A model generated the notes under the pieces. That model saw nothing but the letters and a program-made list of their open reading frames with translations. It was not told where the DNA came from and did not search any database. From Perca fluviatilis (Eukaryota > Chordata > Actinopteri > Perciformes > Percidae), in assembly GCF_010015445.1 (NCBI RefSeq), contig NC_053118.1, positions 18,113,437 to 18,177,436 on the forward strand: a DNA stretch of 64,000 nucleotides, read 5' to 3'. The position numbers and the translations under genes were made by a program. Position 1 is the first letter of the stretch. Every line of letters starts with the position of its first letter. This document shows positions 7,559 through 62,879 of the stretch, piece by piece.

Positions 7559-8920
7559 TTATCTCTTTGCACTTGGGTTTTCAGCCTTTTCCTCCGGGTG
7601 GCTTTTCTGGTGAGCTTTTAAGGTGCGCTCACGGCCAAAGCTCTTGCCGCAGGTTGGACAGGCAAGGCGGCCCACGGCGTGAGCCCGGGACATGTGGGCG
7701 TCCAGCTGCTCAGGACGGGCAAAGCTCTCTTCACATTCTTCACAGGGATGGGCTTTCCGTGGGGTGTGTTTCTCCTTCTTGTGAGCACGGAGCTGAATCA
7801 AGCCGGGGAATGCGAGGTCACATTCCGGACAGGGATGCTGACGGGCCGCAGCGGCCGCATCTGCTTTTGGTTTCTTCTCCTTTGCTGGAGGTTGACTGTC
7901 ATCCTCGGGACTCTTAGCATCCTCCGTTTCTGGTTTTGCTGCGGCTTTAGAAGGACGGCCACGCTTTGCTCCACCTGCTTTTCCCTTTTCCTCCGCTGGA
8001 GGGGCTGCTGACTCTGATGTGCTGCCGGCCTTCACTGCCTCCTCGGGTGCTTCTGCCTCATCCTTCTTTTTCCGCTTTCCCTTTTTCTCAGCAGCTGCGA
8101 CGTCTTCAGCTTTGGAAGGCCGTCCACGTTTCTTGACGGATGCGGCGCTGCCGTTGCATTGCTGACCTTCAGGGTACTTCTCCTGGTGGGCTATCAGCTC
8201 TGGTTCTGTTTCAAAGCCCTGACCACACTTCTTACAGCGGTGAGTTTTCGCAGGGTCCTCCAGCGGTTCGGCAGTCTCTACATCTGGGCGGGGATGCTGG
8301 GTCAGGCGATGAGTACGCAACAGTCCAGCACTACGGAAGGTCTCATTGCAATCTTTACATACCAACTGTTTCTCTGGACACACCTGTCTTCTATGGGCTG
8401 TTAGCTGCGAAGGTTAGAAGTAAAAAAACAAAAAAAAACACACATTTAGTATGAAATATAATGAGCTTAATATTTTTGGGGGGGCATTCATGGTGGTATT
8501 TAGTTTTAATACTGCCAGGGACAATTATTTTTAAGCATTTTTTCACACTCACTTCAGAGAATGTTTTAAAGCTCTCCTTGCAGTGCACACATTTGAAGGG
8601 CTTGTCGTCCTTGCTGTGTGTTGGCTGGTGCTGTGTCAGTTCCTCAGATGACTGAAACGTGCGGTCACACACGTAGCATGTGAACAATGTGTTTCCCTGT
8701 GAAGAAATAAAAAAAGAGGAGCCAAAGTTAAAATAATTCAAGACCCAAGAACCACTTGTAAAATGTTAAACCCAAGTTTATCAGAGTCACTTTATCTGCC
8801 AAGGACAAGTGATGTGCAGGAGTTTGTCTCAGGTTACTGACAACTAACAGTAATACTGTATAAATTGTATATCTGTTTTAACAGTGTGCATTCTCTTGAA
8901 TACAATAAAGCAGCATGGAG

Positions 8921-8969
<49 letters not shown>

Positions 8970-9734
8970 CATTTTACAAAATAACTTCAACAAGTTAATG
9001 AATGGCTCTTTGTGACCATGTTTTTTTCTAGTAATACAATGCCACTAACTTTACAGCAATATGAAGGATAAAAGATCTCAAAATATGACAAATTGTATCT
9101 TTTATTTAAAATGGGAACACACCGGAAAATAATGGAAGAATAAGAAACCTGCTTTATTTACTTTTTGAGTACTTTTAAACACAGAAAATTTGAAAAAAAA
9201 AAAAAAAAAAAAAAGGAAAAAAAAAAAAAAAAAACCCCAAAAAAAAATTAAAAAGGAAAAAAAAAAAATAAAAAAAAAAAAATTTGGCCTAAACATCAAA
9301 ATTTGGCATACCAAGTAACACAAACTGTAACAATTCCTAGTGATTGAATGAACGGATAATGTGAAGCTTACCTGCTGAAGCTGTTGCTTATACTCTTCCC
9401 GGTGGCTCTTCTTCATATGCCTTTCCTTGGCTTTGGCACTGCAGAATGTGATGAAGCACTGGAAACACTGCAGGTTTTCATGCTGGTCTGGAAAGACAGA
9501 AGGACATAGAGAGACCATGTAAAGACAAAGTTAATCTTTCAGTTGCTTTCAGCAAACTGAGTTCAAGTTGTGACCCGTATACCACTTACATGGTTGAATG
9601 GAGGGTGCAGGAGGTCCATTCAAAGTGATAGGTTTGTATGGATCTGCTGGCTTCTCAGGGGGAGCTTCTGGAGGTGGATCTGGCAATCCCCGTCCCATCA
9701 CTATCTCCTCTATGTTCAAAATATCCGAGTCCAT
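7559..9734 (-). CDS. C2H2 zinc-finger / AT-hook protein, ZNF576-like
   Basis: A likely nuclear DNA-binding protein of 416 residues in four coding exons: 9734-9590, 9487-9372, 8696-8553 and 8404-7559. Every junction keeps the frame, with donors GTAAGT, GTAAGC and GTGAGT. The start ATG at 9734 opens MDSDILNIEEIV, followed by a proline-rich region to residue 48. Fingers begin CFQCFITF, CYVCDRTF, CVHCKESF, CKDCNETF, CKKCGQGF, CPECDLAF, CEECEESF and CPTCGKSF. Between the fifth and sixth lies a Lys/Glu/Ala-rich linker with two KRGRPSK AT-hook cores. The segment ITF…KAKERHMKKSH…GNTLFTCYVC resembles human ZNF576 from memory. It is also clearly paralogous to exon 2 of the neighbouring 12245-24773 gene. 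Introns hold an (AT)n run and a long poly-A run. Confidence 0.88.
8922..8960. repeat. (AT)n microsatellite
   Basis: About 19 uninterrupted TA/AT units lie in the intron between the second and third coding exons of the ZNF576-like gene. Confidence 0.95.
9193..9282. repeat. Poly-A low-complexity tract, ~90 bp
   Basis: Almost pure A with a few G, C and T interruptions, inside an intron of the ZNF576-like gene. On the sense (minus) strand it is a poly-T run about 90 bases upstream of the 9371 donor. Its length is likely unreliable in an assembly. Confidence 0.9.
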
Positions 9735-12244: not shown

Positions 12245-15200
12245 CTACTCTTTTCCCAAACTCCCTTGATTATGGAAATTCAAAAAGCAGTTGTGGTTGC
12301 GCGAGATACAAAGAAAGACACAGCACTTAAGACATAGCACTCGAGATGTTCTCTGACAGTCCCCAAAGCGACACTTGCCCCCTTCTCCCTCCCCAAGTTG
12401 CTCTGGCCAGTGGCCTGAACCATCGTACCGTGTGGCTGCATCTGGCAGAGGACTCTCCTCAACCAGGCTGGGATTGGGGGTTTCATTTGTTGCATGAGCC
12501 GTATCTTTGGGGGGTTGAGGGGAAACTGAGTCCTGGGTGTCAGAGCCGCTGGAGAGGATCAAAGCCTTGGACACCTCCAATCTGAAGGCCATGAGAGTCA
12601 AAGGTGCAGACGCTGCCCCGTGTTCCTGTCTGTGTAGGAGCCAGGAGTTGACCAAAGCCAGATCTGTTAGGTACCAGAGTACCGCTTGAGGCCAGCAGGT
12701 TGGGGCCGAGGCAGTGAGAGGGATAGAGTACAGATTCAGCAAATCTCTGTTGAGATGAGCTGACATCTGGGCCATCTCAAAGTTGTCAATGAGTGAAGCC
12801 ATGTTCCTCTGGCCATGTCCCGCAGTAGAAAGTATGAAGCCACAGTGTGATCTGCGTAACATCAGCTTCCCGTCTGAGCTTACAAACTCATCCCCGATCT
12901 GTCCTCGGGCTCCTCCTACCCTTCCTGCACCATGAACCCCAGCAACTAACAAACGCTCGAGCATTGCAGGGGTGGAGAGTTCCTGTTTGCATAGAAACAC
13001 CATACTACCTTTGGGAACCATTTTTTCTACAGCATCTTCTTTGCCCGACAGACCCAACTTAAGATCCACATGTAAGAGAAAACCACCAAATCCAATTAAT
13101 GTAGTACAGTTAAGAGACAGTTTCTTATTGTGCATCTTCCCAGTTAAAGGAAGTGGATATTGGTCAACTGCATAATCACCCTCTCGTCTTAGTGACTGGC
13201 ACCCTGCTTTGAAACGGCACAATAATGGCTGAGCCTTCCACAGGGGATCAGTCTCTGTTTTTGAACTGTTAAGGTCAGTTGGCGTGTCCCCTTGCCTCTG
13301 CCTGTCACTGCGCTGACAAATTTCACTTTGCCTGCTTGAAAGAGTTTTACCTTGCTGTGCATTTTGAAAGTCAATATCATATCTTCCTTCCTGAACATTA
13401 CTGTTGACTGGATCCTTTACAGGAGAGGCAAGCTTCAACATGCGAGACAGCTCGAGGAAACGGGAAAATGGCATGGCGTCAGCAATCAAGGGCACCTTAG
13501 TCAAGTCCTCCCAGTAGAGCCTCGGACTGGGAAACTGAAAAATAGCAAGAGACCAAATAAACTTTTAGTGGTCTTGCATGTCACTAACAGAGCCAAGTAA
13601 ACAAAACGACTCAAAAAACGGAGCACAAACCTTTAAAGTTCCCATTGCAATGTGGATGCCAACAAACCGTGCAACCTCTCTGGCTGTGAAAGGTTTGGCC
13701 AAGTTGGATAGTTTATTTGTGCAATGGGCAATTTCTACCCAGGTATCCCAACCAAAATACTTGGAGAAGTAGTCAATGGACTCTCTGGTCCTGTTTTCCT
13801 CTCTTGGTGTTTGGAGCTGGCTTGTTGAAGTTGGCAAACTAAGGGAGAAAAAGACATTTTTTACCATATTATTCTCCAAAACCCTGATTTCTTCCTTAAT
13901 TGTCCTATTTTAGAACATACAATGAAACATAAGCAGTGCTCTGTAAATGTTTGACAAAAAAAAAAAAAAAGTACTGTACTTTTCTGACATTTCATCTGGC
14001 TGCCATGCTGTGTTTTTTTGGTTCTTGTAGAAATAGGCCATCACTTCTGCTTCTGAGTCAAGCTGAGGATCAGACAATTCAAAACCACCCACGTCCTCTT
14101 CATCAGAATTCTGGAGGAGAAAGTCCCGGAGGGCTTGTGGATGCTGCCACTCAGTGTCTGCCTCAGCTGAAAGATCACATTATATACAGATGAGTTATCT
14201 AAAGTATGATCAAAATGTTTACTCTAGTTTAAGGGCCCTATCTTGCACCCAGCGCAATTGACTTTGTACACCGACGCATGTATCGTTCCTATTTTGCACC
14301 CGACGCACAGCGGACTTTTCCCTCCACAGACGCACGTTGGTAAATTAGGGAATGAACTTGCGCTCCCGGGGGCGGTTCATCAAAAAGAGGAGGCGTGTTC
14401 AGGCGCAAACGTTCCCTGGTGCTATTTTCCAGTTTCAGAAAACAATTCCGCCACTGACCAGGAAAAACCTGGTCTAAAGTCAGTGGTGCTAGTCTAAAGT
14501 CAGTGGTGCGTTATTCAGATGCTATTTTAGGGGCGCATGCTTGGCCATAATGTAGTGTGTGCACAACACGCTACATTATGTACACGGACGCAGCAGTTCC
14601 CATTTTTGCAAACCATACATAATTACAAGGAAAAATATTACTGAAAATGCGCTTCAGGTGTTTAGATAGATCAGGAGGCACTTTACAGTACAGTCCTCAA
14701 AAAGTTGCAGCATTCTTTGTGGCTGGTTGTGTTTTACACAACATTTCCATGAATCATGGATGTGTTGATGACATAAATGAGGAAATATTAGAGGACTTAA
14801 GGAGACGTGATGTTGAACTACGGCGGGATTGGACACTTGAGGGTCTGGGAGTGGCAATGCGCGATGCGCTCCTGGTGGAGTGGGTGGACAGAGATGGAGT
14901 TGGGGGAGGAGGAAGGGGCACAACAGGAGCAGGTGGTGCGTTTGGAGGCCCATGCTTCATGGCTGCAGCAATCCTCTCCAGACTTGAGGAGATGCGCCCG
15001 AGGGGCCGCAGCAACATCGCCACCCGGTCAAGACGGGCATTTATTACTTCCGCATCCCGGACAGCTCCCGCTGGCGTGCGCCAGGCAAATCCGCCGTCAT
15101 AATGGCAATCCGCCATGGAACAAGCGCGCCTGCTCTTAAAGGGAATGTGAGATGACACTCTGATTGGTTTATTGCACGTTACGCCCAAACCACACCCAGC

Positions 15201-18200
15201 TACTTCAGACCAACCTATTTTAGATTTGCGTCGGGCGCAAGACTCATTTCATTTCATCGCCGGTATAATAGCAACAGCGCCAGAGATCCGCCCACAAAGC
15301 TACTTGCGTTTCGCGTTTGATACTTGCGTTTCAGATCGTTAAAATAGGGCCCTAAGAATGTAAAACAAGTGGCTACAAGTACTGGTCATTTTCAAATAAA
15401 AAACAAACCTTGTCCATCTGCAAAGTCACTGACCCCTGGTTCTGACAATAGTCCTCTCACTCTCATTTCCTGGTAGTCAAGTGCAGAAGGGCTCCATTCA
15501 TCTGTTGTTAACAGATTCAACATTAAAATCTTCCTATAATCATTAGTAATAGGAGATTATCACTGGAAAGGCAATGCCTCACCTAAATTACTATCTGCTG
15601 CTTGATGTTCCGTCTGCTGGGCATCACCGGGTGGTCCCGTTGTTAAATCCCCACTGTTGGTCTGAACAGCTCCCAGTAGAACCTCCCTCTCCTCCTCCTT
15701 TACTGGGTAGAAGATACACTGGTTGGTGTTGAACTCCGGGGTGACGCAACCTTCCTTCCTTGTTGGCTCCCCACTCTCCATTACTGAAAGCAAAAAGCCC
15801 AAAACATCCATCTCTGAAAAGATAAAGCCCTCAAAGGCTTACAGACTGTCAATGCAGTGCACAAAGTGGGGTTACCACCACATTATTATTTAGTCATCAC
15901 CTTTCAATGCTAGAGCTAGGAGGTGATTAGCTTAGCTGGAAATTAGCTAATAGCTAATTACAATACATATCTTCTCTTTGTATGATATGAATATTTGACA
16001 TGGTCCCTGACAAATTTACTTAACCTTGGCTTCTTTATTAATGTTGTTAGCATCGTGGTTAACACTATCACTTAGTTTATGACAAATTGTTTCGGCTGTG
16101 CTTTCTAACATTATGTCATTGTGCTAACCGAGCAACGTTAGCCTTTACAACAGAGCCGCTTCAATACACTTGTTAGATAATGTTTCATTACAGAGTTCTC
16201 TGTTGATTTGTGTTTGTCGCTGTGTGCTAGTGGTGGAAAATAATGTATACAGAGAGCGGCGTGCCAGAAATGCAATGCGCCATGACGTAGGTCCCCTTCA
16301 AGGCCAGGCTGATAGTGGACAGAACTCGTAACAGCAACCACATGCTCATAGTGGCATTGACAATGCATAAGCCTGATTAATGCAGTACATATTTATAACT
16401 GGCTGCATATGAGCATTAAATATTAGAATATTATTCCAATATAAAAAAATAAATAACAAATGGTATTATAGAGGAAGACAGCTCTAATGTGAGTGGCATC
16501 GTTCTTCTTATCTAACCCTCAGGAAGAAAGCAAATAATAATATTTCCCAAAATGTTGAATTAGTACTTACAAATTAGTACTTTAAAATGTACTTATAGTG
16601 TGGTCTAATACTTACATGGACTGGAGGTGTTTTCAATGTTGACTGGCTCCACATTCCATCGGATGTGTCTGCTGCCCTGCGTGTCCTGAGCCTCATTTAG
16701 GACGAGGCTGCAGCTCTCCTCCTTCACCAGAACAGTTCTTATATCACGATGGTGCTGTGGCTGCACACTTGCACTCTGTCTGTTTTGACAGGTGGGTGCA
16801 ACCAGTGGTGGTTCTGACATATTCTCTTCAACCTTGATCTCCTGGCTCCCAGTGGCTTCATTTTCAGCACTACAGTTCACACTCTGGAACAAAAACAAAT
16901 GCTTTAGGTTTGCAATGTTAATTATGCATTGTTAATGTATGGTACTTGTTGGTACAATTGGTATCTCACCTGTCTGTTCCTCGCTGTCATCAGGCATGGC
17001 TCCTTGTCAGCCGTCGCTGTTTGTCTAGAGGTGAGGAACTTTTCAAGTATGATGACTGGCGAATGGTCAGCATCCCTGTCATGTTCCTCTCCTCCCTGCA
17101 GTCCTCTAACATTCATTGCCTCCTCAACACTAGCGGTAACCGACTCCGGCTCAAACACTACTCGCTCTTCAGGAGATTCCTCTAATGTAGAGGGCATGGA
17201 AGGCAAAGGTGTGGCAGGAGCAGTAGCTTTGTTGGTCTCAGGACTGGTCTCTGTCTGTGAAGTCTTTGTGCAGGCCTCGCCTTCGTCATTCATTTCTGAA
17301 TCAGAGCTGATGGGACGTTTCTCGTCATCCTGTTCTTTCTCTGATTCTGTTCCTCCGATCGTATCTCCAGCTGAAACTCTCTTTGATATTGAGTCCCGTT
17401 TTAGACGTCCTGTTGCTCTTCTCCTACCACCATTCCTCAAAAAAGATCCCTTTTCTCCTTTTTTCTTCTGGACTAACATTTCTTCCTCCTCTTCTTTGAT
17501 ATCCACTTGGTGAGTGGAGCATGACACAGTCTGTGAAGTTAGACTTTTTCCAGTTGTTATTTCATCGCTAATTTGCCCAGGAAGTTTGTCAGTGCTTCCA
17601 CCCTCAGAATTGCAGGTTCCATTGGATTCGTTTTGGGAAAAAGTGTCTTCATGAGAGGTTGGTTCATCCCTTTCATTCTGCTCCCCAACAGTGACTAAGT
17701 CTACCTCGAAAAGTAAATCCTCCTTAATGTCTTCACGTGTGGTACCCTGGACTTCAGATTCTGAGCTGGGATTCCTTAGTGTGCCTTCTTCTTGCTTGTC
17801 CTCATCTGATGCCAAAGGCTCTCCTGTGTCTGAACTCTTTGTCTGAGTAGAGGTACTTAAAGGACATTCAGATGTGAAGTTTGGAGGGGCCTCACAGGTT
17901 TTGAATTGATCAGATGGTGAGCGAACTTCTGGAGAGGTATAAGATTGATCATTTGCTCCTGTTTTACTTCTAGTCTTATTTTCAGCATCTGAAGGAGGAA
18001 CAGGTAAAGATGGGGATGGAATCAAAGCTGGAAAAGAGACACTTCGCTCTCTCTCCTCTAATGCCATCTCTGGCTCAGTATCCCAGTCTGTAGCAGCATG
18101 CATCACTCCAACAACCTTACCGTGCTGTTTTGGAAGCTGGTAAAGATCCAATCTGGAGACGCCTTCAAAAATGTTCCCATTGGTGTAAGTGAGACCGGGA

Positions 18201-21200
18201 CTCTCTACGATATGCACCGTTGCCTTGTGCTTTTGAAGGGATGAGACTTCGCTAAATCTTTGCCCACAGTCCTTACACTCTAAGGCACGCTTGGAATGGG
18301 AAGTTATCACTCCTTCAGTCTCCACTTTTGAGGAGGCTTTACGTTTCCTGGTGGTCTTTGGCTTGGTGGGCAGCGTCTCAGGTGCTTGACGGGAAGCCTG
18401 TAGCGAGGACAACAATGAAGGAGCTTTTTGGTTCTTTTTGGGTCTTCCTCCTTTTTTCTTACCTTCTGTGGTAAGACTATTTGTAGATTCAATTGTTGAA
18501 TGTTTGCATTTGTTACTTTTCCTCTGTTGGGACATTGTTTGGGCCTCATGAGGAGAAGCCTCCTGTGTCTGACCTGATGCCTTTGAAGGGTCTAACTTGT
18601 AAACTTTCAGTTGAGGCTGTTTATGACCTTTCAGTAGAAGTAGAGCGTCTTGCGTTATGTGTGGTCCAGGCATGTCTGCTGAAGCTGCGCTTGTTTTTGT
18701 ATTGACATTTTCCTCTTGTGCCAGGTTTTTTGTCAGGTTTTTCTTTCGCTTCCCATCCTTTGCATTCTTGGGCTGGTCTTTTCGGATTAGTTTTGTTTGT
18801 TTTTTCTTTTTAAATGCAGGTGAGGCTACAGTTTTATTCTCACATATGTGTGTCACACCCTCCCTAGCCCCTTCTTTTTGCTTTTTCATATTTTTTTTTC
18901 TTGTATCCTCTTTGATTTGTTGTACTTGTGAGTCCTGTGTTGATGAAGGCGATTTTATTTCAGCCGTAGATATCAAATGTCCCCCTTTCTTGTCCCTTTT
19001 TCCTTTTCTTCCCTTCTTCTGCGACGGTACCTTTTTCTCTGAGAGATTTGTTGTTTGTGTTTGACCTCTTATCCCTTCTTTCTGTGTTGGCTGACGCTGC
19101 TGTGATGGCTTCTTCTGTTTCTTGTTTTTCTTCTCTTTATTTTGTGGACCAAATTTAACAACAAGGTGAGACTTTTTTGTTCTTTTCCGTTTGGCAGGTG
19201 TGGCATCAATTTGTAAATCATCCTTGTATATGGAACCAACCAGTTCTTGCATATATCCTTGAAAGATAAATGCCCTGCTAGGCTTTCTTTTCCGCACTTT
19301 CACCAGTTCTTGAGCTGACATTACATTTATGGGTAACTCTGACATCTGTGGCACCTGCTTGGTCTCTAAGTGTGATGGAACCTCTTCTTTTGCAGGTGGA
19401 ACCTCTACTTCAGACAGGTTTTCCACCTGCTCCTGATCCTTCTTGCTATCTACCAGTAATTTCTCAGATGGTTCTTGTTCAGATGGTTCTTCAGCTTGTT
19501 CCTGTGTCTCTTGTGGTGCAGCTCCATCCATCAGTGGGTGGTCCTCATCTAGACTTACTGTTTGAATCTGTGAATCAACCTTTTCTTTGAGATTAGTTTC
19601 AGATTCACTTGGAGTTTGTGTAAGTGTGTCTGGTGTAACAAAATGGCAAGAAGGAAGGCCCTGTTGCTCGGTTTGTAAAGGCATCAGCTCAAGCTCAACT
19701 GTAGTCATAAGTGGTGGGGCTGACAGGCTGGTCTCCTGCTCATCTAATACAGTCTGATCCGCAGTCTTCTCCAGGTCAGTGGTTGGTACCAGAGAGGACA
19801 GGATATCATTTTGTGGGACAGTTTGGGATTGTTCCAGCTCCACAGTTGGTATAAGTTCTAATATGACTGTTTGCTCAAGGTTTTCCTCTACCTCATTCTG
19901 ACAAACCATTTGATCCATTGCATCAGACTGAATTGCACTAATATCGGGCTGTTGAAGGATCTGATGCATGACCTCTCCCTCCGGCCCCTCTGTATGTTGA
20001 GTCGGATTGAATGTTAGCTCCATATTTTCCCCTGCTGCTATATGGGAACCTAGTTCTGAGAAAGAGGGGTTTTCCAACTGTTCATCTGGCGTAATAGGTT
20101 CCAGTATAATTGTTTGCTCCATTGAATAACATGTGTTATTTGAAGGGTCCAATTCAACTATCTTAGATTCCGGCTGTTTCAGTCCTAGAAAATCCATCTG
20201 TGGTGGATTGAGATTAAAATTCCCTGTTTCTATCAGCTGGGATATCTGCTGCACTTCCAGTGGTGGGGCATGAGGTGGCACCTGCCCCAATATGACAACT
20301 TGGTTCACTTTCTGCACATTTCCCAAAGATTCAATAAGTCTGCGAATCTGTTCTGTGTCAATATTGGCATCAACCTTTTGTAGAGGTCCATTGGGCTCCA
20401 TCTGTAGTAAAGCTGGTTGGCAAAAAGATATTGGAGTAATAATGGGTGTACTTTGTTTCACTTGCTGCCCAGCTGGGAGGGTCTTACTGGCTGCAGCAGG
20501 CAACACATTGTGCTTAGTTTTCATGTGATGTAGACGTGTCTTGGTACTCTTGAAAGTGGACTTGCAAACCAAACAAGGGTACTTTATTGTAGAAGCACCT
20601 AAAGATAATAAAGGAAGACAGTTGTGATGCATTATGGTATACCATGGAAAGCACAACATATTTCTGGCTACCTAATAGATATAGTTTATCATTTAAGTTT
20701 TTTTTTTTCTTTCTAATACAACAGCGATATTTAGATAATTTTCAACACCCCTAGTATAAAGAATACATTATTGTTTTTATATATGTTTTCTAATCAACAC
20801 CAGACCTTTTTGAGACATGTATTGGCTACAAAAACATTAAAATAATGTCACATACAACACATTGTACTAATCTAAACTAAGCCCTTGACTCCACGGTTTA
20901 GATGATGCATCCCTAATATTTTATAATTTTAGATCAGAAAAAGGACTAAGAATAAGAGTCTACAACAATGCTAGCAGCTCTGTGAGGCTGTACATAAGCA
21001 CAGCATTGCTTTAAATTGAATGCTGGAGACAGCAGGTATAATGGCCTGACTCTTAGTTTAGTGTGTTAGCATGCTAACATTTGCTAATTAGCACCAAATG
21101 CATGAAGTCCAGTTGAAACTGATGGTATTGTCATTAGTATTTAGTCACAAACCAAAATTAAAATTTGAACTGATGATGGCGCTACATGACAAGTTAAGGA

Positions 21201-24200
21201 ATTAACAACAAGATTACAATTCATCCTGAGACGGACATGAATGTCTGTACCAAATATAATTTAATAGTTGTTGAGACATTTCCCTCAAAACCACAACTGT
21301 CAACTTCATAGTGGTGCCAGAAGGAAAGTCAGGGGATTCACAAATTCATTAGGATTCATCCTTTGAGAACTTTGAATGAGTGTACAAACTTTAATGGGAA
21401 TCCATAAATGTTGAGACATTTCAGTCTGGACCAAAGTGGTGGACTGACTAAACTAATACATTCATCCCTAATACCATGTTGCTAGCAAAGCTAAAGAAGT
21501 ATGTTAACATTTGAATGTGTAAAATAATAAGACATCCGTAACAGACATTTTTCTTACCATTATCTTTCTTGAGTGGTGCTTTAGCTGTGGTGTCTCCCTC
21601 TCCTTCAGCTCCCTCTGGCAAGTGTGACACCATATGTTTCTGCAGAGCTTTGGACATAGTGAACCTCTTTCCACACTCCTTGCAAACATACGGCCTCTCT
21701 CCAGTGTGTGTGCGGCGGTGATACTTCAGCAATGTCATCGTTTTGCAAGGTTTGCCACAGTCAGCGCAGGCATAACCGTCCTGGCCAAAATGAATTTTTT
21801 TATGAAGGGTGAGCTCTGATGACTTATTGAAGGCCTGGCCACAGATTGGACACTTGAAGGGTTTCTTCTCTGTGTGGGCTTTCTGGTGGATCATGAGCTC
21901 GGTGGAGTTTGTGAAGTGGCGGTCACAAACGTAACAGGCGAAAAGGGCGTTCCTAAGAATGCACTGTTCATATTCTGCTGGGTGGCTCAACTTCAGGTGA
22001 CGCTCTTTGCTCTTGTGATCACTGAAGATTATGTGGCACTCGATGCACTGCAGGGAGAGCTGAGACGCTACAGGGAAACAGGGCACGAGGTGAAGAAAGT
22101 TTACATCCATATTCTTAGAATAGAGAGATTTATTCATAAAAAGTATAAAGGCTGGCAAAAATAAAACATAATGTGGCTCTGGAGGGTAATTAAGGCACAT
22201 TCTCGTGTAAACAACTCACAGCAAATAAATGTTTGTCTGGGCAAACAAAATAGTGAAAGGCAACCCTACATCTTCCACAACTTCTATTTACCATCAAGAT
22301 AAGGTCGCATTAATTTATTGCCATACATGCAGGGACGGACTGACAATCTGTGCGTTCTGGAAAAGTCCAGAATGGCTGTCGGCACAAAAAAAAAAAAAAA
22401 AGTCTATTAAAGCGATATTAACAGCCAACAGCAGGGGGCGCAAATACAATCACTTATATGCTACGTGTAAAAATAAAACTGAAGAAGAGTCGGCCTACGT
22501 CATTAGACGTCAGTTAATCTCACATCAGCAATACTGGTAAGTGCGAGGAGCAGGAAACTTATAGGCTGCCTTTATTCCCATCTTAGCGAATTGCATAGTC
22601 AGCTCAACATGAGTGTGCATCATGATTATGAAAATGATCATGCCATTTAGTGCTGTCAAACTTAACGTATTTAATCATTTCTGTTAGGTTAATTTGAAAT
22701 GTTAAACGGTTAGAAATGAATCGCGGGTTGACCGCGATTTCACTTGGTTGTATGAGAGGTTGTAGTGAGCTCACTTTTGCTGCTAGGATGAAGACTATGG
22801 TATAAAATTAAACGGGAAAACATCAGGCATGCATTGGTACCACTCTAAAAGTGATAACAAACAGGGAAGGGGGCTAAATAATTAACCAAATTTAACCAAA
22901 AGTTTAACCAAAAAATCCTAGCTTGCACTTTCTGTCTGTCTTCCATCAGAGTGCAGTTTTTCCTTGTCTTTCATATTTGTGTTTACTATTGTGGAACTGG
23001 CAAAGACCTGGAGGTTGTTTGTGAAAGCTTCACAGACAACATTGATAAGGCCGAGTCATTTTCATCATTTCACAGCCTTAATATGAATCAAAAGTGTAAT
23101 ATAAAAGTGTAAAATATGAAATAGGTTATTCAATGCTAATTCTTTAACACAAAGCAACACATGTTATATACATTTATATTTGAATAGTTATAGTAGTAAC
23201 TAACACTCTCAGTGTAGTTTGGGTATAGGCCTACAATATATCTAATCCCCATGTTCAGGTACAGCAAGTAGCCTACTTTATCTCTGAAAGTGTAGTCAGT
23301 AATACTGTGGTTTCTGTAGCCAGTGACATTTCATTATTTGTATTTTATTTTCAATGCAGATGTAATGGCATTGTACATTTTTAGTTTTTATTTGAAGGCT
23401 GAGGCTTCATTAATAAACACAACCCAAATTATCATCATTGGTTTTGAGTTTGGTTTTACTTGCTGTGAATACAGTATTGTGGCATAGTATCAGGACATCC
23501 TGGCTAGTATCTGTCGCGCACGGCTACGGGCGAATGGCCGGATGATGGGCTATTTGGGAGAAAGTCCAGGGCTGTTTTTTAGCCCCAGTCCATCCCTGCA
23601 TACATGTGAAGTCAAAATTGGAAAACACATCATTACTGTCCTCTGTGCGTTGGAGCCTGCAGTATAGCCAATAGTGGATTTTTGAGGCAGGTACCAATTT
23701 AGATATATGAGAGTTTAATAAATATGATAATAATATATCAGCCAAATGCTTTGGTGACTTTGGCTGCTATTGAACACCAAAACCTATTAACTGCACTACC
23801 AGTATGGTAAAACAAAACATGGAGGTATTTTAAGAGTATTCTATCTTGTAAAACTGCACTGCAAAATGACTGAATTTCACTGTTATGTTTGAGCACACTT
23901 AGCTACTGAAAATATTTTTAACAATAGCCTATATTGTGTATTTAACCTAAAACAACAGTAATCAACATGCCAGGTAGAAATCACATTATTCATTAGACTA
24001 CTGTAGAAAATCACAGTAACTAACATGCTATGACAGTAAATCACAGCAACCACCACCCTACTGTGGAAAATCTGTTTACTATGTGGACCGATGGACTGCC
24101 ATATCACATTGTAAACTGGGTTTTGAGAAACCACAGAACATCCCAACTACAAAATGTGATTTAAAGTACTGTTATATTTCCTTTTTATAGTGGAAAATGA

Positions 24201-24773
24201 ATAATCAAACACCAAATGGGTCTCTCAATCCTTGCCTGGTTCAGAAAGGTATAACACAGAACACCACACATACATGGTGAAATACTCACATGTGAGAGGC
24301 ATAACCAGTGGTTTGGACATGTCCATCTTCAGAGGATCTACCATGGCCTTCTTGGAAGGAACATATTTCCTACCATCACGGATACCTGTATTCTGTTTCT
24401 TTGCCTTTGGCTCACCACACCCAGGATTTGCATTTGTGTCAGGTACCGGTTCTGTGGGGGCACTTGACTTCGAAGCAGAGCTTGTCTCCATCCCTGCAGT
24501 GTCAACTGGGGGCTCTGTTAGTGGCTGAACAGTAGGCTCATTCTCCACTGATTGTGTGACTGCCATACTTGCAGGTGTTTCTGCTGTTAGCAACCCTGTC
24601 CCATTTTCCTGTGGCGAGACTACTGCTGCAGTCCCGTCAGGTTCATTCTCCTTTTCTTGTGCATCTGGTTCACTCTGTGCTGGCAGATCTTCAGTCTCTG
24701 TGTCCAGTGGTTGCTCTGTGGTTGCTGTGGTCACAGGGTTTGGCCCGCAGTTTGACTGGGTCGGACTCTGCAT
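12245..24773 (-). CDS. Candidate zinc finger-piggyBac transposase (PGBD) fusion protein
   Basis: Nine coding exons read in one frame: 24773-24290, 22067-21558, 20598-16970, 16883-16616, 15783-15583, 15501-15409, 14166-13980, 13838-13631 and 13534-12245, about 2,289 residues. Residues 1-161 are Ser/Thr/Glu-rich. Five C2H2 fingers (CIECHIIF to CKECGKRF) span about 169-305, one is at about 340 (CLVCKSTF) and one at about 1103 (CKDCGQRF). Residues 340-1540 are otherwise acidic, Gln/Ser/Lys-rich and probably disordered. From about 1800 a piggyBac DDE domain follows (FTAREVARFVGIHIAMGTLK, YWEDL, FSRFLELSRMLKL, LTDLALVNSWLLHR). It ends with a Cys-rich finger (CRFGDC…CLKCCVFLC…C…H). At least one catalytic Asp seems lost, so a host DNA/chromatin-binding role is more likely than transposition. 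The 16616-to-15783 join could instead separate two genes: an ATG lies two bases into exon 15783. Confidence 0.7.
14233..15352 (+). mobile_element. PIF/Harbinger DNA transposon, internally deleted
   Basis: Short terminal inverted repeats GGGCCCTAT(C/T)TT bound the element, and TAA sits at both edges (14230-14232 and 15353-15355) as the 3-bp target duplication typical of Harbinger. The plus-strand ORF at 14647-15102 carries the end of a HARBI1-like transposase: RFRCLDRSGGTLQYSPQKVA then VAGCVLHNISMNHG. The amino-terminal and most catalytic parts are missing. An opposite-strand ORF (15188-14754) has a helical stretch (ARLDRVAMLL…SSLERIAAAM) that might be a remnant of the accessory Myb/SANT protein. 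It is inserted in the intron between the 15409 and 14166 exons of the fusion gene. Confidence 0.85.
22330..23598. mobile_element. Non-autonomous hAT element, 1,269 bp
   Basis: Termini are CAGGGACGGACTG and CAGTCCATCCCTG (inverted, one mismatch). Both sides carry the perfect 8-bp duplication CATACATG (22322-22329 and 23599-23606). It contains no transposase ORF. It lies in intron 1 of the fusion gene. Confidence 0.88.
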
Positions 24774-27917: not shown

Positions 27918-29554
27918 TCAACCCTCAGAATCATCCTGTGGTATCGGCAGCTCCCCAGTAGCATGTTTTATGTAATGCAAATGCAGCTTTGCTACTTCAT
28001 CAAAGCCCATATCACATTCAATACACTCCCATTCCCAATACTTATGCTCTCTGTACAGGTTTGTTTCCTTTGACTCCCTCTCATCTAGCTTCTGTCCTCG
28101 TCTGCTTTCGGATTTCAACTCAGCCAGGGGATAAGATCCAGTCCAGCCGGGTGATTTGGAAAGCTTGAAATGATCCAAAGGCTCTCCGCAATCAGACTCT
28201 TCAGAGTTTGCGCGATCCCCAGACCCAGCATCATTCCATGGCTCGAGGGTATAATTTTTCCCCACGCATTTTTCCTTTCCTGGCAGCTCTTGCATGTTTG
28301 TATCCATGTTTGTCTCCTCTTTAACACTAGCGAGAAGAAGTCTCTTTTTTTGAATCACTCGCTTCTTTGCAATAATCGCAGAATTCTTGATCCCCAGAGG
28401 AATCCCACGGGACCCAGCATATTTTCTAAAATGCCTACTGCGGTGTGCAAACAGATTTCCAGGATGGGAAAAGCTCTTCCCGCACAATGTGCACTGGTAA
28501 GGTCTTGCTCCAGTGTGGGTGTTGTGGTGGTTCCTGAGGTGTCTAGACAAGTAAAAGCTCTTGTGGCAAATATTGCATGTATGTGTTCTTGTGAGATTGT
28601 GAGTGTGCAGGTGTTTATCTAGTGACGCTTCATCTTTATAGCCTTTGGCACAACTTAAACACCAAAATGGTTTCTGTTTATGGAGATCGACGTGAGACAG
28701 CCATGACTTTATAGAACTAAAGTTTTTGTTACACTGATCACATCTGGGAGGTTTTGATTGAAGTGACCTGTGAACTCTCAGGTGACCGAGCAGCCGCGCT
28801 CGCCTGATAAATGACATCCCACAGTCTGGACACTGATATTCACGCAAATTCTGACTTGTCGTTTTAGATGATTGTTGGTTTTCATGCAGCTGTTGGTGTT
28901 TTGTGAATGAAACCAGGTATGTATAAAGCTTCCCACAGTCCAAGCAAGCATAACCCTTCCTAGGTTTCTTTTTCCTTGAAGCTGGGGCAACTTCAACACC
29001 TTGTGTTAAGCCTGAGGTTTGGGTTTGCAATGAAGTGCCCATGTCGCACCCGTCTGCATCACCATCCGTGTCTTCACCTCCGTTTTCTCCATCGTCCGTT
29101 CTCTCAGAATCCAGTTTTGCTGCGGGATTCAGGTCGTCTCCCGTCTGAGCTTCTTCCCCCTCCTCTTCCAGGGCATGCTGGTGCAGGTGAGTCTTGTAGA
29201 CGTCCCAGTGTGTAAACTTTAGTCCACAATCCTTACATGAAATGCTGCACGGTTTGACTAGAAAAGAAGAAGAAGAAAAAAAAAAAGGACCAATTTAAAT
29301 TCTTTTACAATTTTCAGTCATTTCATGTACTATATTTTGAACTTTAAGGTATTATGAGTATCCATAAATAAAGTATGTAAAATAAACTACCAGATAGCTT
29401 CTGATTTGATTAAATGAACAAATTGTTCTATGATGTTCCAGCTAAATTTGGCAGACTGGTAACAGGTAAAGGCCTGGTCTTTACTGGTGAGGTTACCAAT
29501 GTTTAACTGCAGCAGGTAAAACTTACAAGACTGAGTTGTGGATCTTCTCTTCAT
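27918..29554 (-). CDS. Eight-finger C2H2 protein
   Basis: The last exon 29257-27918 (acceptor TTTTCTAG) encodes a finger (CKDCGLKF), an acidic linker, then CLDCGKLY, CPDCGMSF, CDQCNKNF, CLSCAKGY, CNICHKSF and CTLCGKSF. A basic region follows (KKRVIQKKR), then an acidic stretch and a final finger (CIECDMGF) ending LHLHYIKHATGE. It opens with two bases of a codon, so a phase-1 exon must precede it. The nearest candidate is 29554-29527 (ATG, nine codons, perfect donor GTAAGT), which would give 455 residues. The alternative is that it shares the first coding exon at 42414-42300 with the 28-finger gene as an alternative last exon. A minus-strand AATAAA lies at 27575-27570. The main exon is secure; the first exon is tentative. 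Confidence 0.75.
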
Positions 29555-31269: not shown

Positions 31270-34200
31270 CTAATACACTCTACTGGCATGTTCAATATAG
31301 TGCTGGTGCAAATCGGTTTCTTGACAAAAAGTAGTTCCACATTCAAGGCAAGTAAGGCCATTAGTATCTCCTGATGAGACCGCAGCGGGGGCATCACTGT
31401 GCCTTTTGTAATCACCGATACATTCCTGGTGATGATCAATAAGGTCCTGTATTTCACTAAAGGTCCTGGGGCAAATAGAGCAATGATACGAGTCATTGTT
31501 GCAGTGCTGAGTTTCGTGTTTTTGTAATGCAGTTGGTGAAAGAAAGGCTTTGCCACAATGTTGGCACTTATGGCTACTTTGTGACTGGCTGTCTGGGTTA
31601 AGTGTACAGGATGGAAAGGACGTCCCTCTCATGTCAGCAGAGAGGATATTAGGTTTGAGAGGCTTTGAGGGCATAGCAGCGCTGAGCCTATAGCGAACTT
31701 CGTTGGGGAGACGACAGCGGACTTCATCGTGCCAGGTGAGGTGTTGTTGCAGCTGATTCTCAGTCCAAAAGCCGTGGCAGCACAGAGCGCAGCAGTAAGG
31801 CCGGCTCTTCGCCTTGGTCTTATGGGTTCCCAATTGTTCCTCCGTTTGGAAAGCTTTCCCACACTTATCACACTTGAAGAGGCATTTGGCTGTATGCTCT
31901 GACAGACGGCTAAGAGGGGGGGAAACCTCAGCCGCGGTTGCAGGAGTTTGGATCTCCTGTTTAGACTCGTGCTTGATCTCCACACACACTTTCTTATGGT
32001 CAAGGAGGGCGCGCGTAGAACTGCACTGCTTCCCACACTCAAGGCACAAGACAAATTTCACAAGTGGAGGGTCTGATCGGATTTTCTTCTTTCCTCTGCC
32101 AACAGGGCTATTTTTCACCGTCACTGTAGTGTTGTCTTCGGTCTGGTTGACTGCACTGCTTGAGGCAATGGACTCCATTTTTAACCTCAAAAGAATCTTA
32201 TTTTTACGTTTTGTCCTCTTCGAGTGGGCTTGCCATTTGTGGGCTCGCAGACCTCGTGCTTTAGCAAAGGTCATAGAACAAAGGGGACACTGGTGAGCCT
32301 TTGGCTTCAGTGTGGTTGACATGGACTCACTCCCATTCAAGTTGACATCAACTTGTTCTGGGACTTGGTCAACCAAGGCGAGCCCATCTCCTTGATGTTC
32401 TGCAGCTTCAACAGTGTTGTTACTGTGCTCACCGTCATAGTGGGCAGCTAGAAGTGAACCTTGCTCAAACGTTTTGTTACATTCTGGACATGAAAACTCG
32501 GAATTTTCCAGTGTCCTGTTGCTTTCGACACTTTTGAGTGAATCAGGCTCTGGCTCAGTTTTGGTTCGACACTGAGGATTAAACATCTGGTGGCGCTGGA
32601 GAACACAATGGTTAAAAAACTGTTTGCCACATTTGTGGCACTGAAAAGGTCCGCCCTCTGTCTTGTGGCTCGCAGATTTCAAATCATCATCTTTTAGCAA
32701 GCACCGTGAAAATTTCTTTTCTTTGTGCCATCTTTTGTGGGAGCCGAGAGCCGAGTTGGACATAAATCGCCTCCCGCATTCTAAGCAGTGAAATTGTCCT
32801 TTGCTTGGATCTTCCGGTTTAGTTTTTTTAAGCATTACAGACATGGCCAGTTTTGCTTTTGGTACAGATTTGTAACCGTCAGCATGAATTCTTTTATGGA
32901 AATTCAAAGCCCCAACTACTGAAAAGCTTCGGTCACACTTTTTGCATTTGTATTTCAAATTGGTTGTACTTGGGTTTTCTAAGTTGCCTTCATCTGTTTG
33001 AATTTCCATCTTTAGTTCCCCACTGTCCATTTCATTCTTTACTCCAGTATGTACCGTGATTTGCTCAGAGCTTTCCCGTGTGACCTCCAAACTATCCTTG
33101 TGCAGTGTTAGAATATCATAGTTTTCTGACGGTTCCGTTTTAAAATCAACTACTTGATTTTCTCTTTTAATGCAAAGTTTTTGATGAGCCCTCAAAGAGG
33201 CCTTGTTGTTGAAATGTGCAAGGCATGTTGCACACTGCCGATCCTCCAGCGTGACAGGAGATCTTGGCGATGATGGCGAGTGCCCAGTCTCGTACCCGTG
33301 GCTTTTCATGTGAAACTGAAGTGCTTTGGCCCGGGAAAACAGCTTCCCGCAGTCAGGACAGCTGTAGGTGTTCTTTTTCAACTGTTCTACCTGATGCTGA
33401 AAAGACTTAATGGGCGGTGGGAGTAACTGGTCATTATGCACAACCTGGTGTCTCAGAAGGCTGGAGAAAAGACGGAACGACCTGTTGCAGAGTTCACATT
33501 TGTGATTTCCATTTTCATGTTTTCGCATGTGCAATGCCATAATGCGCTTGTGACGGAACTTTCTACCGCACACTGGACATGCAACCTTGGAGCGTGGATG
33601 TCCATTAACGGAGTGCAAAGATCCTGTAACACCTTTTCTTAGCCTCAAATCTGTACACAGAGTCTGACTTTGCTTGTGGTGGGAGTAAGCTCCTAGAGAC
33701 CAAAAACCCTTCCCGCATTGTTCACAATGATAAATCTTTGGGCCGAGAAGGGTTTTGTTTGGATTGTATTCTTTCTTAGTGACTGAAATGTTCTCCTTCT
33801 TTTGTGCGGAGCAGTTTTTCATATGATTAAACAGGCTTGCTGCATGCAAATAAGACATCATGCAATCTGGACATTGATATTGTTTTCTTTTGGGATGATG
33901 CAGCTGATGAGAGACTAAAGCAGACAAACGGGAGAAGCATTTACCACACTCATTGCATGCCAGATTTTTCTTCTCTAATCCCTCTGCCTCATCATCAGCA
34001 CTTGTGTTTTGCTTCTTGTGTTGATGAATGTGACTGCAGTGTGCTGCATAGCTACTTGCTTCATGGCCACATGTGTCACATGTAAGAAGTGCCACTGACT
34101 GACCTTGACTCTGCTGTCTTCTCTTACGAACGCCATGCCACATTCTGTGAACGCGCAGTGATGAAGCACTAGAAAACCAACGGTAACACTCTGGACAATC

Positions 34201-35865
34201 AAATCTTTCCTCTGTCGTTTTATTCTCCACTTCTCTCGCTACCAGTGCACACTGCTCGTCAGTTTGCTCAAAGTCAATTTCTACAATTTTCAAATCCATC
34301 TCTGGTTTTGAAACCGGGCTACTGGGTGAAACTCCGGCATCGCCGTCATCTCTTACTTCCTGATCCGATTCACACAGCAGTTCAAGATCAGGATTCTGGT
34401 CTTGGACGGGCTCGTCCTCAGATTCACTTGCACTGATCACCTGTACATTAAAGTCCCCAGGTTCATAACTGTCCCCGTCTTCATCAGTCTCATTTACATG
34501 CAAGTCTTCTTCAGCCACACTGGAAGGAAGCACATTCTCTGAGACCGCTGCTTCCTGCTCAGTCTCTTTTCTTTCGCTTTCCAAAGTTTCCTGTTGAGGT
34601 AGCAGAGAGGTACGCATCTGAGTCTCCTTCTCTGTTTCTCTAAAAACATCCGTGTGATGAAGCTGATGGGAGTGAAGTGCTGAAGCCCTGGAAAACTTTA
34701 GCCCACAATCTTTACATTCAAATGCCTTCTTCTGTAGCTGACACACTTGATGAAGAAAGGACTTTGCTGGGGTCTCATCACTGTGCGCCGTGCGCTGATG
34801 CCTGTAGTAAAAGGTTAGAGTCATAAATACTTTTCCACATTCCTCACATGGGAACCTTTTTGCAGAATCATTTGAATGATTAGCATGCCATCGCTGATGG
34901 TTGAAGAGGGCAATATGGCTATTGAAAGCCTTTTTACACTCACTACAGTAAAACTCACTGCAGCTTTTCTTTGGTTTTTCTTTCATTTCTTCTGGAGAGC
35001 ATTGACTGTTGCGGCTAAATCGTTGATGTGTTTTAAGGCGCATCAGAGCAGTAAAAGCTTTACCACATGAACACTTAAAAGATTTTTCAGGAGTATCATC
35101 TGTCTGGTTTTTACTGGGCTTGGCTTCAACTGTTGGCTCCTCCGTGTGAAATGCATTTCCTGAACTCCTGTTTTGTGACTTTACTAAATTTTCCTCATGA
35201 CAACGACGGTGTGCATCGAGAGCTGAAGCGCGGGAATAATTGCGGCCACAAGACTCGCACTGAAACGACTTCTTTTTCAAATGTTCAAGGTCATGAAAAA
35301 GAGACTTTGAGGCTTGTCTGTGTGAGCGCTGATGGTTGAGAAAGTGTCCAATCACACAGTAACATTTCCCACAGTCTGGACATTCATAGGTGTGTTGCTT
35401 TGTTATCCCAGAAGGTATTTGAATACTAGACTCCTTTTGGGAGGTTTGACCATGGCTCTTCTCCATATGCGAGTGGAACTCACTTGGTTCAACAAATGAT
35501 AGTGAACATAAATTACAGAAATTAGCTGTTGCATTGTCCTTTTCTGCATCATTTAAACCATCTAACTGGTTGTCTAAATACACGCTTTCTTGCGGATGCT
35601 GATGCCGATGCTCCAAGTATGCTGCCTCCTCTCTGAAGACTTCTCCACAATCCCGACAGCAGAAAACCCCAACCCCTAAAAATAGAAAGAGGAAAATAGG
35701 AGGTCAAAGCCACTCCTGTTTCCAGAGAAAGAAAGACAGGAAAAAAAAAGAAAAGAAAAATCACAAAAACAGGTGCAAATCATATCTTTATTTTAAAAGG
35801 TGGGTAGAGTTTACAGTAAAATTACAAAGAGATTTTTCAAATGAAATGATAAAAATTTGGTGGTG

Positions 35866-45099: not shown

Positions 45100-48000
45100 T
45101 CAAATCTCTCCTTGTGCATGTTGCAAGTAATGCATTTGTAGATCAAGCTCCCGGGGAAGTGAACACCCGCATATCATGCACTGGAGAAGCCGTTCTGGGG
45201 CGAAAGGCAAACGGGGTCCAAGTTTGGGAGGTTCTGTCCGTGGGGCAAGCTGAGGTAGGGGCATGGTCTGTGGTATGTGTGGCCTCTCGCTCATTACTGC
45301 CTGTGGTGTGAAAAAAATATTTGGGTGTGGATGTCTTGAAAGTGTGCCAACTGCGACAGAGTGAAGAGGGTGTGGCCCAGGCAAAGCAAGAGGAGGGAGT
45401 GGAGCAAGTGGAGGTGAGAAAAAAGGAGAAGGCTGATTTATGATTATTTGAGTGCCTGATACCATTGGCTGTTGCTGCAGCTCCTGTCCATTACCTGGTT
45501 TGAGTTGCCCAGTGAGCAGCGTTTGATTACTTTGGAAGCCCCATACTGGCGTTCCCAACGCCTGGCCAAAACGATGAGGCTCGTATTGGATGGAGATGGG
45601 AACCTTCTGTGTCATTGTCTGGCTCTGTACACTGGCCCAGGCAGATGACACCTGCTTTTGCTGCAGCTGAAAATCTTGAGTATTTACTAATTTCTCGGCG
45701 TTTAATGTCTTTGGAATTCCTGGTGGTGTTTGCATGTCCCACAAGGTGCTACCTACCCCATGAGAAACAGGAGTTGAAATTGGCATAGCACTGCTTTGGT
45801 CTATTTGAGTTGAGGTGGACGCACCTGCTAAGCCTGAAACCCACTGCTGTTGCAGCTCACAGCCATTCCATGGCTTCTCTGGCTGGCTAACAGTTGACGG
45901 TATAACTTGAGGATTACTCAAGTCCCACATTCTAGTGTCCTCTTTTTTAGGAGGTGTGGATGGCTCCTTTTGTATTGACACTAGGCCACCTGCCCATCGT
46001 GGCAGCTGAAGCTCTTGGCCGAGCTTATTTGGAGAGATCTGTGAATTTGCTTGTAAAGCAGGTCTGACACTCCACAGAGCTGCCCCATCTATGTAAGATG
46101 AGGGAATAGAAAAATCATGTCGCAAAGAGCTTGTGGAAGCTAGCACTGTGGATGTGGGTGTACTACTCCAAGTAACAGGCTTGGGCTGCCTGTGCTGCTC
46201 CATCTCACTTACTATTGACGGGCTGGATTTTATTGGCATAGCTGCCGTGAGGGAGCTGACAATAGTAGCTGCGCTCTCTTTCATGTGTGAGGACTCTGAA
46301 CTCGGAGCGGAAGTGGGGACTGACTGAGCTATTAAAGGGTTATCTGCCCAGCCTGGACTTCTCTGATGGTGCTGCTGTGGGCCAGGCTGTGGTGGGCTCT
46401 CAAACTGCGTCTGCTGTGGAGCAGCATGTTGCTGCTGTGACGATGGGACAGGCATTACCTCTCCACCGTCCACCTTCCACTGCACCGGTTGAGGGTGTAG
46501 CTCAGACAGCCACGGCTCCTTCTGCAGTCTACCTTGTAAATCCATGCGAGGCGCAAGCACGGACGAATGTGGCTGGGCCGCCCTTCTGTGCGCATCGGCA
46601 TCTCTCAGTACAGAAACTGGATACGGAGACGGCTGAGCGCTAACCATCCCAGAGCCTCCGAATGGCTTAGAAAAGCCCCACATGAGCCTCCCCCCTCTCC
46701 TCCCCCTGATGCCCCTGCCTCTCATCCTAGCACCCATCGGGAAAGAATTGTACTGGCTGAAACCCTGGCGTTTGCGAGCATGGATCTTCTGGTGCACTAA
46801 CAGGCTGCTAAACCAAGAAAAGGTTTTGTGACACTCATCACAGCGATGCGGCCTCTCTCCTGTGTGCGTGTTCATGTGATCACGGAGCAGATAGGCCAAT
46901 CCAAAGCTCTTATCGCACTGGTCACACTTATGACGTTTGTCGCCATTGTGCGATAACATATGGTGCTGCAGTTGGGTCTCGTCGCTGTAGCCTTTGCGGC
47001 AGCTGGTGCAGCGGAACGGTTTTTCCTGATGCAGCCTTTGATGCGTTTTCATGTTCTGGAGGAAGGCAAAATCCTTCCCACAGTCAGGGCATTTGTATGG
47101 CTTCTTGCCTGTATGGATGATGAGATGTTGCTGTAAGTAGCTACCAAATCTAAAGCCCTTGCCACACACTTTGCACTGGTAAGGCTTGTCCTTAGAATGT
47201 ATGCGCATATGCAGCTCTAACACTGAGCGGTGGCGGAAGGTCTTTCCGCATTCAGAACACTTATACGACTTAATACTTATGCCATCGCTTCTCAATTTCC
47301 CCTGTACATTATCACTGCTTAATGGAGTAAATTGATTTGTAGGTGGCGTTGCCACCTTTTTTAAATATTGTGCTACAGACTTGTGGACACTTATCACATG
47401 TAAATTTAAACTGGATTCATCCCGATAAACACATGCGCAGTGCGGACAGGTGTGTCCTTTTTCCCAGTGCTTGTTATTCTCCTTTGGGGGTCTGGGTGTT
47501 CTCTCCAGCGTCTCATACTCCGCCTCGTGAACAAGCATGTGGGCTCTCAGGTTAGCTGGTGCCAAGCAGGTCTGGGGACAAAGGGGGCAGTTGAATGTGC
47601 GTTTCGACTCCTCGATATGGTGCGTGTTCTCTTTTCCCGGCCCTGTAACTGGCTCCTGTACGGACGCAGGGGCCTGCTTGCTGGGCTGCTCAGCGGAGGA
47701 GTTGGTTTTGCGCAGTCTATGCTGACGGCAGTGTGCCTTCATGTTCTGGGCAAAGGCAAATTTTTTACCACATTCAGGGCAGCGGAAGGGCTTCTGGCCT
47801 GTGTGCAGATACTGATGCTGATGGAGGAGGCTGCTGTACTTGAAGGTCTTACCGCAGATGTTGCACAGGTGAGAGCGTGTGTTGCCAGCGTGCTTGCGAC
47901 GGTGGTCCTCCATGACGGAGTAGTGTTTGAAAACCAAACCGCACTCGGGGCATTCATAGGGTTTCAGGGCGGTGTGACATCGCTGGTGGTAGCGCAGGGC

Positions 48001-53990: not shown

Positions 53991-54100
53991 ATCTAAAAGC
54001 ACAAAACAGGGAACAACAGAGAAAGTGAGGTTGATGTTTATTTTCTCAAAGCAGATACCATAGTAAGAGACTGTTTAATGTTCCTTCCAGTCAAGTGACT

Positions 54101-55306
<1,206 letters not shown>

Positions 55307-57492: not shown

Positions 57493-58727
<1,235 letters not shown>

Positions 58728-59209
58728 AGTCACTTGACTGGAAGGAACATTAAACAGTCTCTTACTATGGTATCTGCTTTGAGAAAATAAACATCAACCT
58801 CACTTTCTCTGTTGTTCCCTGTTTTGTGTTGTTAGATGAAAAAAAAATGATTTACCGATTAAATGAATCAGCAATAAGGAAAACAAGATAAAAAGTAATC
58901 TCTCTTTAGAAGTGAATAGAAGATATACGTGCAAAATAAATAATCAGAACACCGGCTTTAATATGAAAAATCATAAATCTACGTATCAAAACCAAACAAA
59001 ATGTAATACTTTTCATAAATATTTAAGAGAAAAAACCTCAAGAAATAAAACAAAAAAAGATATGTAAGTGTTTCTGTACTTTCAAAACTTAAAATTCTGA
59101 AAAGGCAGCCTTCACCACTCGCCAGATATACATTCAGGGACTGAACAAAACAGTTTGGTATTAGAGCGATTTTGAGAAAATTATTTTTCAAGATGTCTGA
59201 CTTTATTTT

Positions 59210-61613: not shown

Positions 61614-62823
<1,210 letters not shown>

Positions 62824-62879
62824 AGTCACTTGACTGTCATTTGTTGTAAAAAACTGTATATCCCTTTAATAAAAAATCA

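Follow-up and report, generated by a model that had tools for sequence, protein, structure and literature searches.

On the minus strand of a 64,000-nucleotide stretch of contig NC_053118.1 of the perch Perca fluviatilis (hereafter the window, along which all positions are counted), nine exons between 24773 and 12245 join into one open frame of 2,289 residues, with a lone stop at its end. This single frame holds a host domain together with a transposase domain—Pfam places C2H2 zinc fingers within the first 1,631 residues and a piggyBac domain (PF13843) within the last 658—and we consider it rather probable that it is one host–transposase fusion gene, with a dead piggyBac body, that acts as a putative SUMO-dependent repressor. 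A C2H2–piggyBac fusion had been proposed in an earlier note made from the sequence letters; full-length teleost orthologues, long contigs that look intron-free and a conserved junction support that reading. The fusion was there called unfamiliar, and while the fusion itself holds, its gene model already stands in databases as znf576 or “uncharacterized.”

All introns are GT..AG and the phases agree at every join, which bears out the claim that nine minus-strand exons could be joined in phase. Exon 1 (24290..24773; start codon at 24773) encodes a low-complexity N-terminus (residues 1–161) that matches P0126, exon 2 (21558..22067) encodes C2H2 fingers 1–5 (residues 162–331), and exon 3 (16970..20598) encodes finger 6, a long low-complexity stretch and finger 7 (residues 332–1541). 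The earlier count of seven fingers and an exon of some 1,200 residues thus agrees with what we find: seven consensus-matching fingers (exon 2 has five, exon 3 the other two, at its start and late in its course) and an exon 3 of about 1,210 residues. Exon 4 (16616..16883; residues 1542–1630) is followed by intron 4 (15784..16615), GT..AG and phase 1 on both sides, which separates the zinc-finger-side from the transposase-side exons. This key junction lies where it had been placed, as the donor GT begins at 16615, the acceptor AG is at 15785–15784 and exon 5 (15583..15783; residues 1631–1697) runs from 15783. Exon 6 (15409..15501) continues the joined frame, exon 7 (13980..14166) has an acidic stretch whose likeness to a piggyBac N-terminus is seen by eye only, the piggyBac-like domain begins in exon 8 (13631..13838), and exon 9 (12245..13534) encodes the RNase H-like core and a C-terminal Cys-rich finger and includes the stop codon. 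The five introns said to serve the transposase part are present, but intron 8 alone interrupts the Pfam DDE match.

A search with the full-length protein, proposed in the earlier note for the joined exons, returned 233 homologues (120 among the matches listed). The best match among those listed, a 2,294-aa protein of Perca flavescens, covers 100% of the query at 97% identity (69 substitutions, 13 gap columns), and its record bears the title “zinc finger protein 576, tandem duplicate 1.” Among 220 proteins fetched from three homologue searches, 142 span the exon 4/5 junction in one high-scoring segment pair (about 30 or more residues on each side), 112 contain fingers, junction and transposase part together, and none ends at the junction; a last aligned residue within 1541–1830 occurs in P0074, P0075 and P0076 alone, at 1725 or later. 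Four contigs tagged “lgn,” which we take to mean assembled sequencing runs, carry 7,422, 7,140, 6,682 and 6,322 bases for 2,275, 2,229, 2,116 and 2,062 residues, respectively (P0140, P0165, P0205, and P0220). With fewer than 600 bases each beyond the coding part, against 5.7 kb of introns in the window, they have no room for introns and so look like spliced mRNA, a processed copy being the alternative reading. They are stronger evidence for one gene than the database models, because the latter lean on each other.

Conservation was compared in 86 hand-picked, near-full-length orthologues (82 of the 95 proteins P0126–P0220 plus P0083, P0089, P0101, and P0119). Mean identity to the window protein is 0.84 for exon 2, 0.79 for exon 9, 0.73 for exon 8 and 0.63 for exon 3, and the best 40-residue blocks of exon 9 reach 0.95–0.96. 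Residues 401–440 in exon 3, NGPLQKVDANIDTEQIRRLIESLGNVQKVNQVVILGQVPP, have a mean identity of 0.95 and no Pfam match, and would form a conserved but unnamed motif that follows finger 6 and precedes the low-complexity part.

Around the junction lie the only four matches in the whole protein to the SUMO consensus psi-K-x-E, where psi stands for V, I, L, M, or F, at Lys1366, Lys1558, Lys1595 and Lys1659 (15698..17497, minus strand; codon starts 17497, 16835, 16724, and 15700). They span 294 residues, three upstream of the junction (two of them in exon 4) and one, the fourth, downstream in exon 5, and are kept in 85, 83, 82 and 83 of the 86 orthologues, respectively. As controls, four K-x-E motifs lacking the hydrophobic residue in the same low-complexity regions are kept in 6–52 orthologues and three reversed motifs in 14–64, the 64 belonging to a motif that overlaps a true site. 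Inspection by eye shows such motifs, in matching order, in Conger, Carassius and Salvelinus, and three of the four in the later-starting Megalops model; further psiKxE motifs occur besides in most of a set made up of these four and Scleropages. The apparent conserved SUMO-consensus cassette around the junction is a new observation here.

Several points weigh against a single fused gene of this kind. Database models are partly homology-built, which keeps species from counting as independent votes; percomorphs make up most of the 86 orthologues, whose conservation is in part shared ancestry; exons 5–7, at mean identities of 0.50–0.63, fall below the domains; and the broken Scleropages model shows only one of the four psiKxE sites by eye. 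Other points would fit two adjacent genes, a zinc-finger gene ending at about 16.6 kb and a domesticated piggyBac gene starting from about 15.8 kb, misjoined by gene finders. Reading through intron 4 meets an early stop (frame end at 16605), and an in-frame ATG stands in exon 5 directly past the acceptor. In Anoplopoma two separate loci are annotated (P0206 and P0001), but there the break falls within exon 3 and not at the junction. In ten of the 220 proteins the alignment starts only within residues 1541–1800 (P0003, P0005, P0006, P0010, P0011, P0020, P0034, P0063, P0072, and P0118, the last with 838 residues upstream of that start); two annotated models, P0011 of Lampris and P0063 of Brienomyrus, begin past the junction, as does P0034, though the latter sits on a 1.9-kb contig and is probably cut, and late starters are mostly on short contigs or in cut-looking models. 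Since the junction is aligned through in one piece by nearly two-thirds of the fetched proteins and ended at by none, and both halves occur together on contigs of 6.3–7.4 kb, we reject the split-gene model and give a misjoined pair very little credence; the scenario of two transcripts parting between 16.6 and 15.8 kb, named beforehand as the outcome that would speak against a fusion, finds little support in the homologues. Alternative ends as in CSB-PGBD3, with a long form that has the transposase part next to a shorter one that lacks it, or with a form starting inside that part, are improbable too, though less so. Such a pattern has a precedent in CSB-PGBD3 (PMC2268245), and would suit the several isoforms in named records; the models P0074, P0075, P0076 and P0192, which end in or near exons 6–8 and so lack most of the transposase part; and P0006 (44 member sequences), which begins at exon 4 and whose leading residues resemble the end of intron 3. 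Yet no model among the 220 ends at exon 4, the Nerophis isoforms P0106 and P0217 (the two with ends examined) retain the transposase end, and, as P0076 is marked partial and P0192 runs into intron 8, these look like poor models.

Within the single fused gene that we favor, the transposase part is recognizable in sequence and in fold. PF13843 matches residues 1812–1997 at 71.2 bits (cut-off 22.4), over profile positions 3–144 of 349 only, and matches 31 of 31 relatives (E up to 1). Fold comparison found the piggyBac fold over the body, and the C-terminal Cys-rich finger of piggyBac type (12272..12373, minus strand; residues 2248–2281) aligns with the genome piggyBac locus L001, with its seven Cys and last His each kept in 86 of 86 orthologues and His2274 in 83. 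Sequence searches of the PDB found no piggyBac, either with exon 9 alone or with profile A2, which gave two chance matches. Catalytic places were assigned from alignments of 23 rows, namely the window protein and the 22 of 37 sequences tried that had a recognizable domain start; genome piggyBac templates came from four of eight loci, plus strand only. Asp1984 (codon 13163..13165, minus strand), equivalent to the catalytic Asp268 of T. ni piggyBac, is retained and is Asp in all 86 orthologues. The place of the catalytic Asp346, in contrast, is taken by Lys2043 (codon 12986..12988, minus strand), with Lys in 83 and Arg in 3 of the 86 orthologues versus Asp in 6 of 6 piggyBac templates. The third Asp is paired with Asp2124 (acidic in 82 of 86) in one alignment and with His2120 (a column that holds 52 Arg and 23 His among the 86) in two others, and the genome piggyBac locus L006 itself has Tyr at that place. 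The DDD triad of an active piggyBac transposase is thus incomplete; by alignment, the transposase part has lost at least the second of its catalytic Asp residues and would be expected not to cut DNA. Of the piggyBac DDE domain with C-terminal finger described in the earlier note, fold and finger are there while that Asp is gone. An active transposase is not favored, the second catalytic Asp being replaced in all aligned orthologues, and we rate it the least probable of the readings weighed here; it would draw on the invariant Asp1984, on the one alignment that supplies an acidic third residue, and on the statement that human PGBD5 induces transposition, although its motif is not conserved (PMC3902484), whereby sequence alone is not final.

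A search of the perch genome (951 Mb, 297 contigs) with the 658-residue part recovered its own exons and then distant piggyBac relatives only, the best 33% identical; outside the window no match exceeded 45% identity, that one covering about 61 residues. As far as this search sees, the fusion gene is single-copy, and a recent hop is rejected, given that the nearest match outside the window is 33% identical. No inverted repeats of at least 20 nt, the length to which the search was limited, were found at the locus. The proposal of an old, domesticated insertion draws support from the lost catalytic Asp, the lack of a close genome copy and the teleost-wide full-length orthologues. PF13843 matches in the same genome number at least 127, many in open frames and several of 500–680 residues; recent activity of piggyBac-like elements in this perch is conceivable.

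Homologues occur in many percomorphs and in Danio aesculapii (P0101), Carassius (P0060), and Salvelinus (P0035). All parts are present in Aldrovandia (P0102), the junction and transposase part in the elopomorph Megalops (P0061), and the fingers and transposase part in the osteoglossomorph Scleropages (P0119), where the middle is poorly modeled. Because both bony-tongues and elopomorphs have the gene, the fusion, if of single origin, probably predates crown teleosts and the split of their main lineages. No non-teleost relatives were among the matches listed (120 of 128; 120 of 233), which does not imply absence outside teleosts; a teleost cluster (P0169) carries a ferret label in its nr name, probably through contamination. 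Many teleost records are called znf576, tandem duplicate 1, and many others just “uncharacterized.” The locus is the perch form of znf576, tandem duplicate 1, a name that comes from fish database records and hides the transposase half, and the fusion gene model, being already public, is not new. A sole transcript called znf576 is reported in PMC2751788, with an identity that its authors regard as not conclusive. The titles and abstract openings listed in paper searches yielded no description of a teleost C2H2–piggyBac fusion, by which “not in print” is weakly tested.

How such a gene may have arisen and may work can be sketched. A C2H2 zinc-finger gene would have gained its 3′ exons from a piggyBac element, perhaps captured through an exon-trap splice site as in CSB-PGBD3 (PMC2268245), and would have retained them since as part of its protein. 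The C2H2 fingers would locate the target, while the transposase body and Cys-rich finger might add a second contact with DNA or chromatin and perhaps dimerize. As precedents, the Cys-rich finger of piggyBac is a binder of transposon-end DNA, and its counterpart in PiggyMac binds histone H3 weakly (PMC8086355). The four conserved SUMO-consensus lysines could recruit co-repressors, and targets would be silenced; we infer from sequence a putative function as a DNA-bound, SUMO-dependent repressor. A bolder and rather unlikely proposal is that this repressor dates from crown teleosts and is a dead piggyBac turned on its own kind, with fingers and body recognizing and silencing piggyBac ends or piggyBac-rich loci. 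With a teleost-wide gene probably older than the crown split, host–transposase fusion would reach beyond the tetrapod cases already described; here the conservation of the transposase core, and not just of a small part that binds DNA, comes close to that of the fingers. A gene often left “uncharacterized” thereby gains a hypothesis with testable parts: the fingers, the dead core, the Cys-rich finger, and the four SUMO-consensus lysines.

Elsewhere in the window, intron 6 contains a repeat (14233..15352), not in the mRNA, with a Harbinger-like remnant seen as a weak DDE_Tnp_4 match (PF13359) of 17.1 bits, below cut-off; its ends, by eye, are agggccctatttt and agatagggccct. Further C2H2 frames lie in a row on the minus strand at 7559–9530, 27918–29294, 31270–35703, and 45100–48711. 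The stretch at 7.5–9.5 kb resembles exon 2 (55% across 31 residues, 50% across 52) and is a candidate for the second tandem duplicate. At 50560–52061, on the minus strand, a Myb/SANT-like domain (PF13873, 72.8 bits), of a type common in Harbinger-derived genes, lies beside a glutamine-rich stretch and is perhaps another domesticated gene. Three frames, at 54091–54501 (minus), 58327–58737 (plus), and 62424–62849 (plus), are by eye near-identical over much of their length; that at 58327–58737 is trypsin-like (PF00089), and the three, in mixed orientation, are perhaps an inverted trypsin-like cluster. A tRNA scan found no tRNA.

Among known systems, znf576, tandem duplicate 1, of teleosts is the same gene as that in the window. 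Mammalian PGBD1 has SCAN/KRAB domains upstream of a piggyBac body and, to our knowledge, no C2H2 array; PGBD5 is by a paper's title reportedly conserved from cephalochordates to humans, its human form is said (in a title and abstract opening) to induce transposition, and we know of no C2H2 fusion of it. PGBD5 is old and single-copy, with seven exons, introns inside the transposase domain and a triad that is not conserved (PMC3902484), and so resembles the perch gene in age, copy number, intron-split transposase domain and degenerate triad. PGBD1 likewise places domains of transcription-factor type ahead of a piggyBac body. It is an exon-trap case whose transposase lies inside a single large 3′ exon (PMC2268245). 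KRABINER and the other tetrapod fusions surveyed by Cosby et al. (2021), as cited in PMC12062965, also join a regulatory host domain to a transposase, though in tetrapods and not ray-finned fish. In CSB-PGBD3 of primates, in-frame splicing joins host exons to a piggyBac transposase, which there forms an alternative 3′ terminal exon (PMC2268245), and one catalytic Asp has become Asn (PMC3902484); the perch gene shares the fusion of host exons to a piggyBac 3′ end and an altered catalytic Asp, whereas it differs in its host (C2H2 versus SWI/SNF), in having five transposase-side exons instead of an alternative terminal one, and in being teleost-wide, CSB-PGBD3 being seen in primates. The perch gene is thus of the CSB-PGBD3 and PGBD1 kind, but its host half is another, its distribution is wider and older, and its transposase part is spread over several exons.
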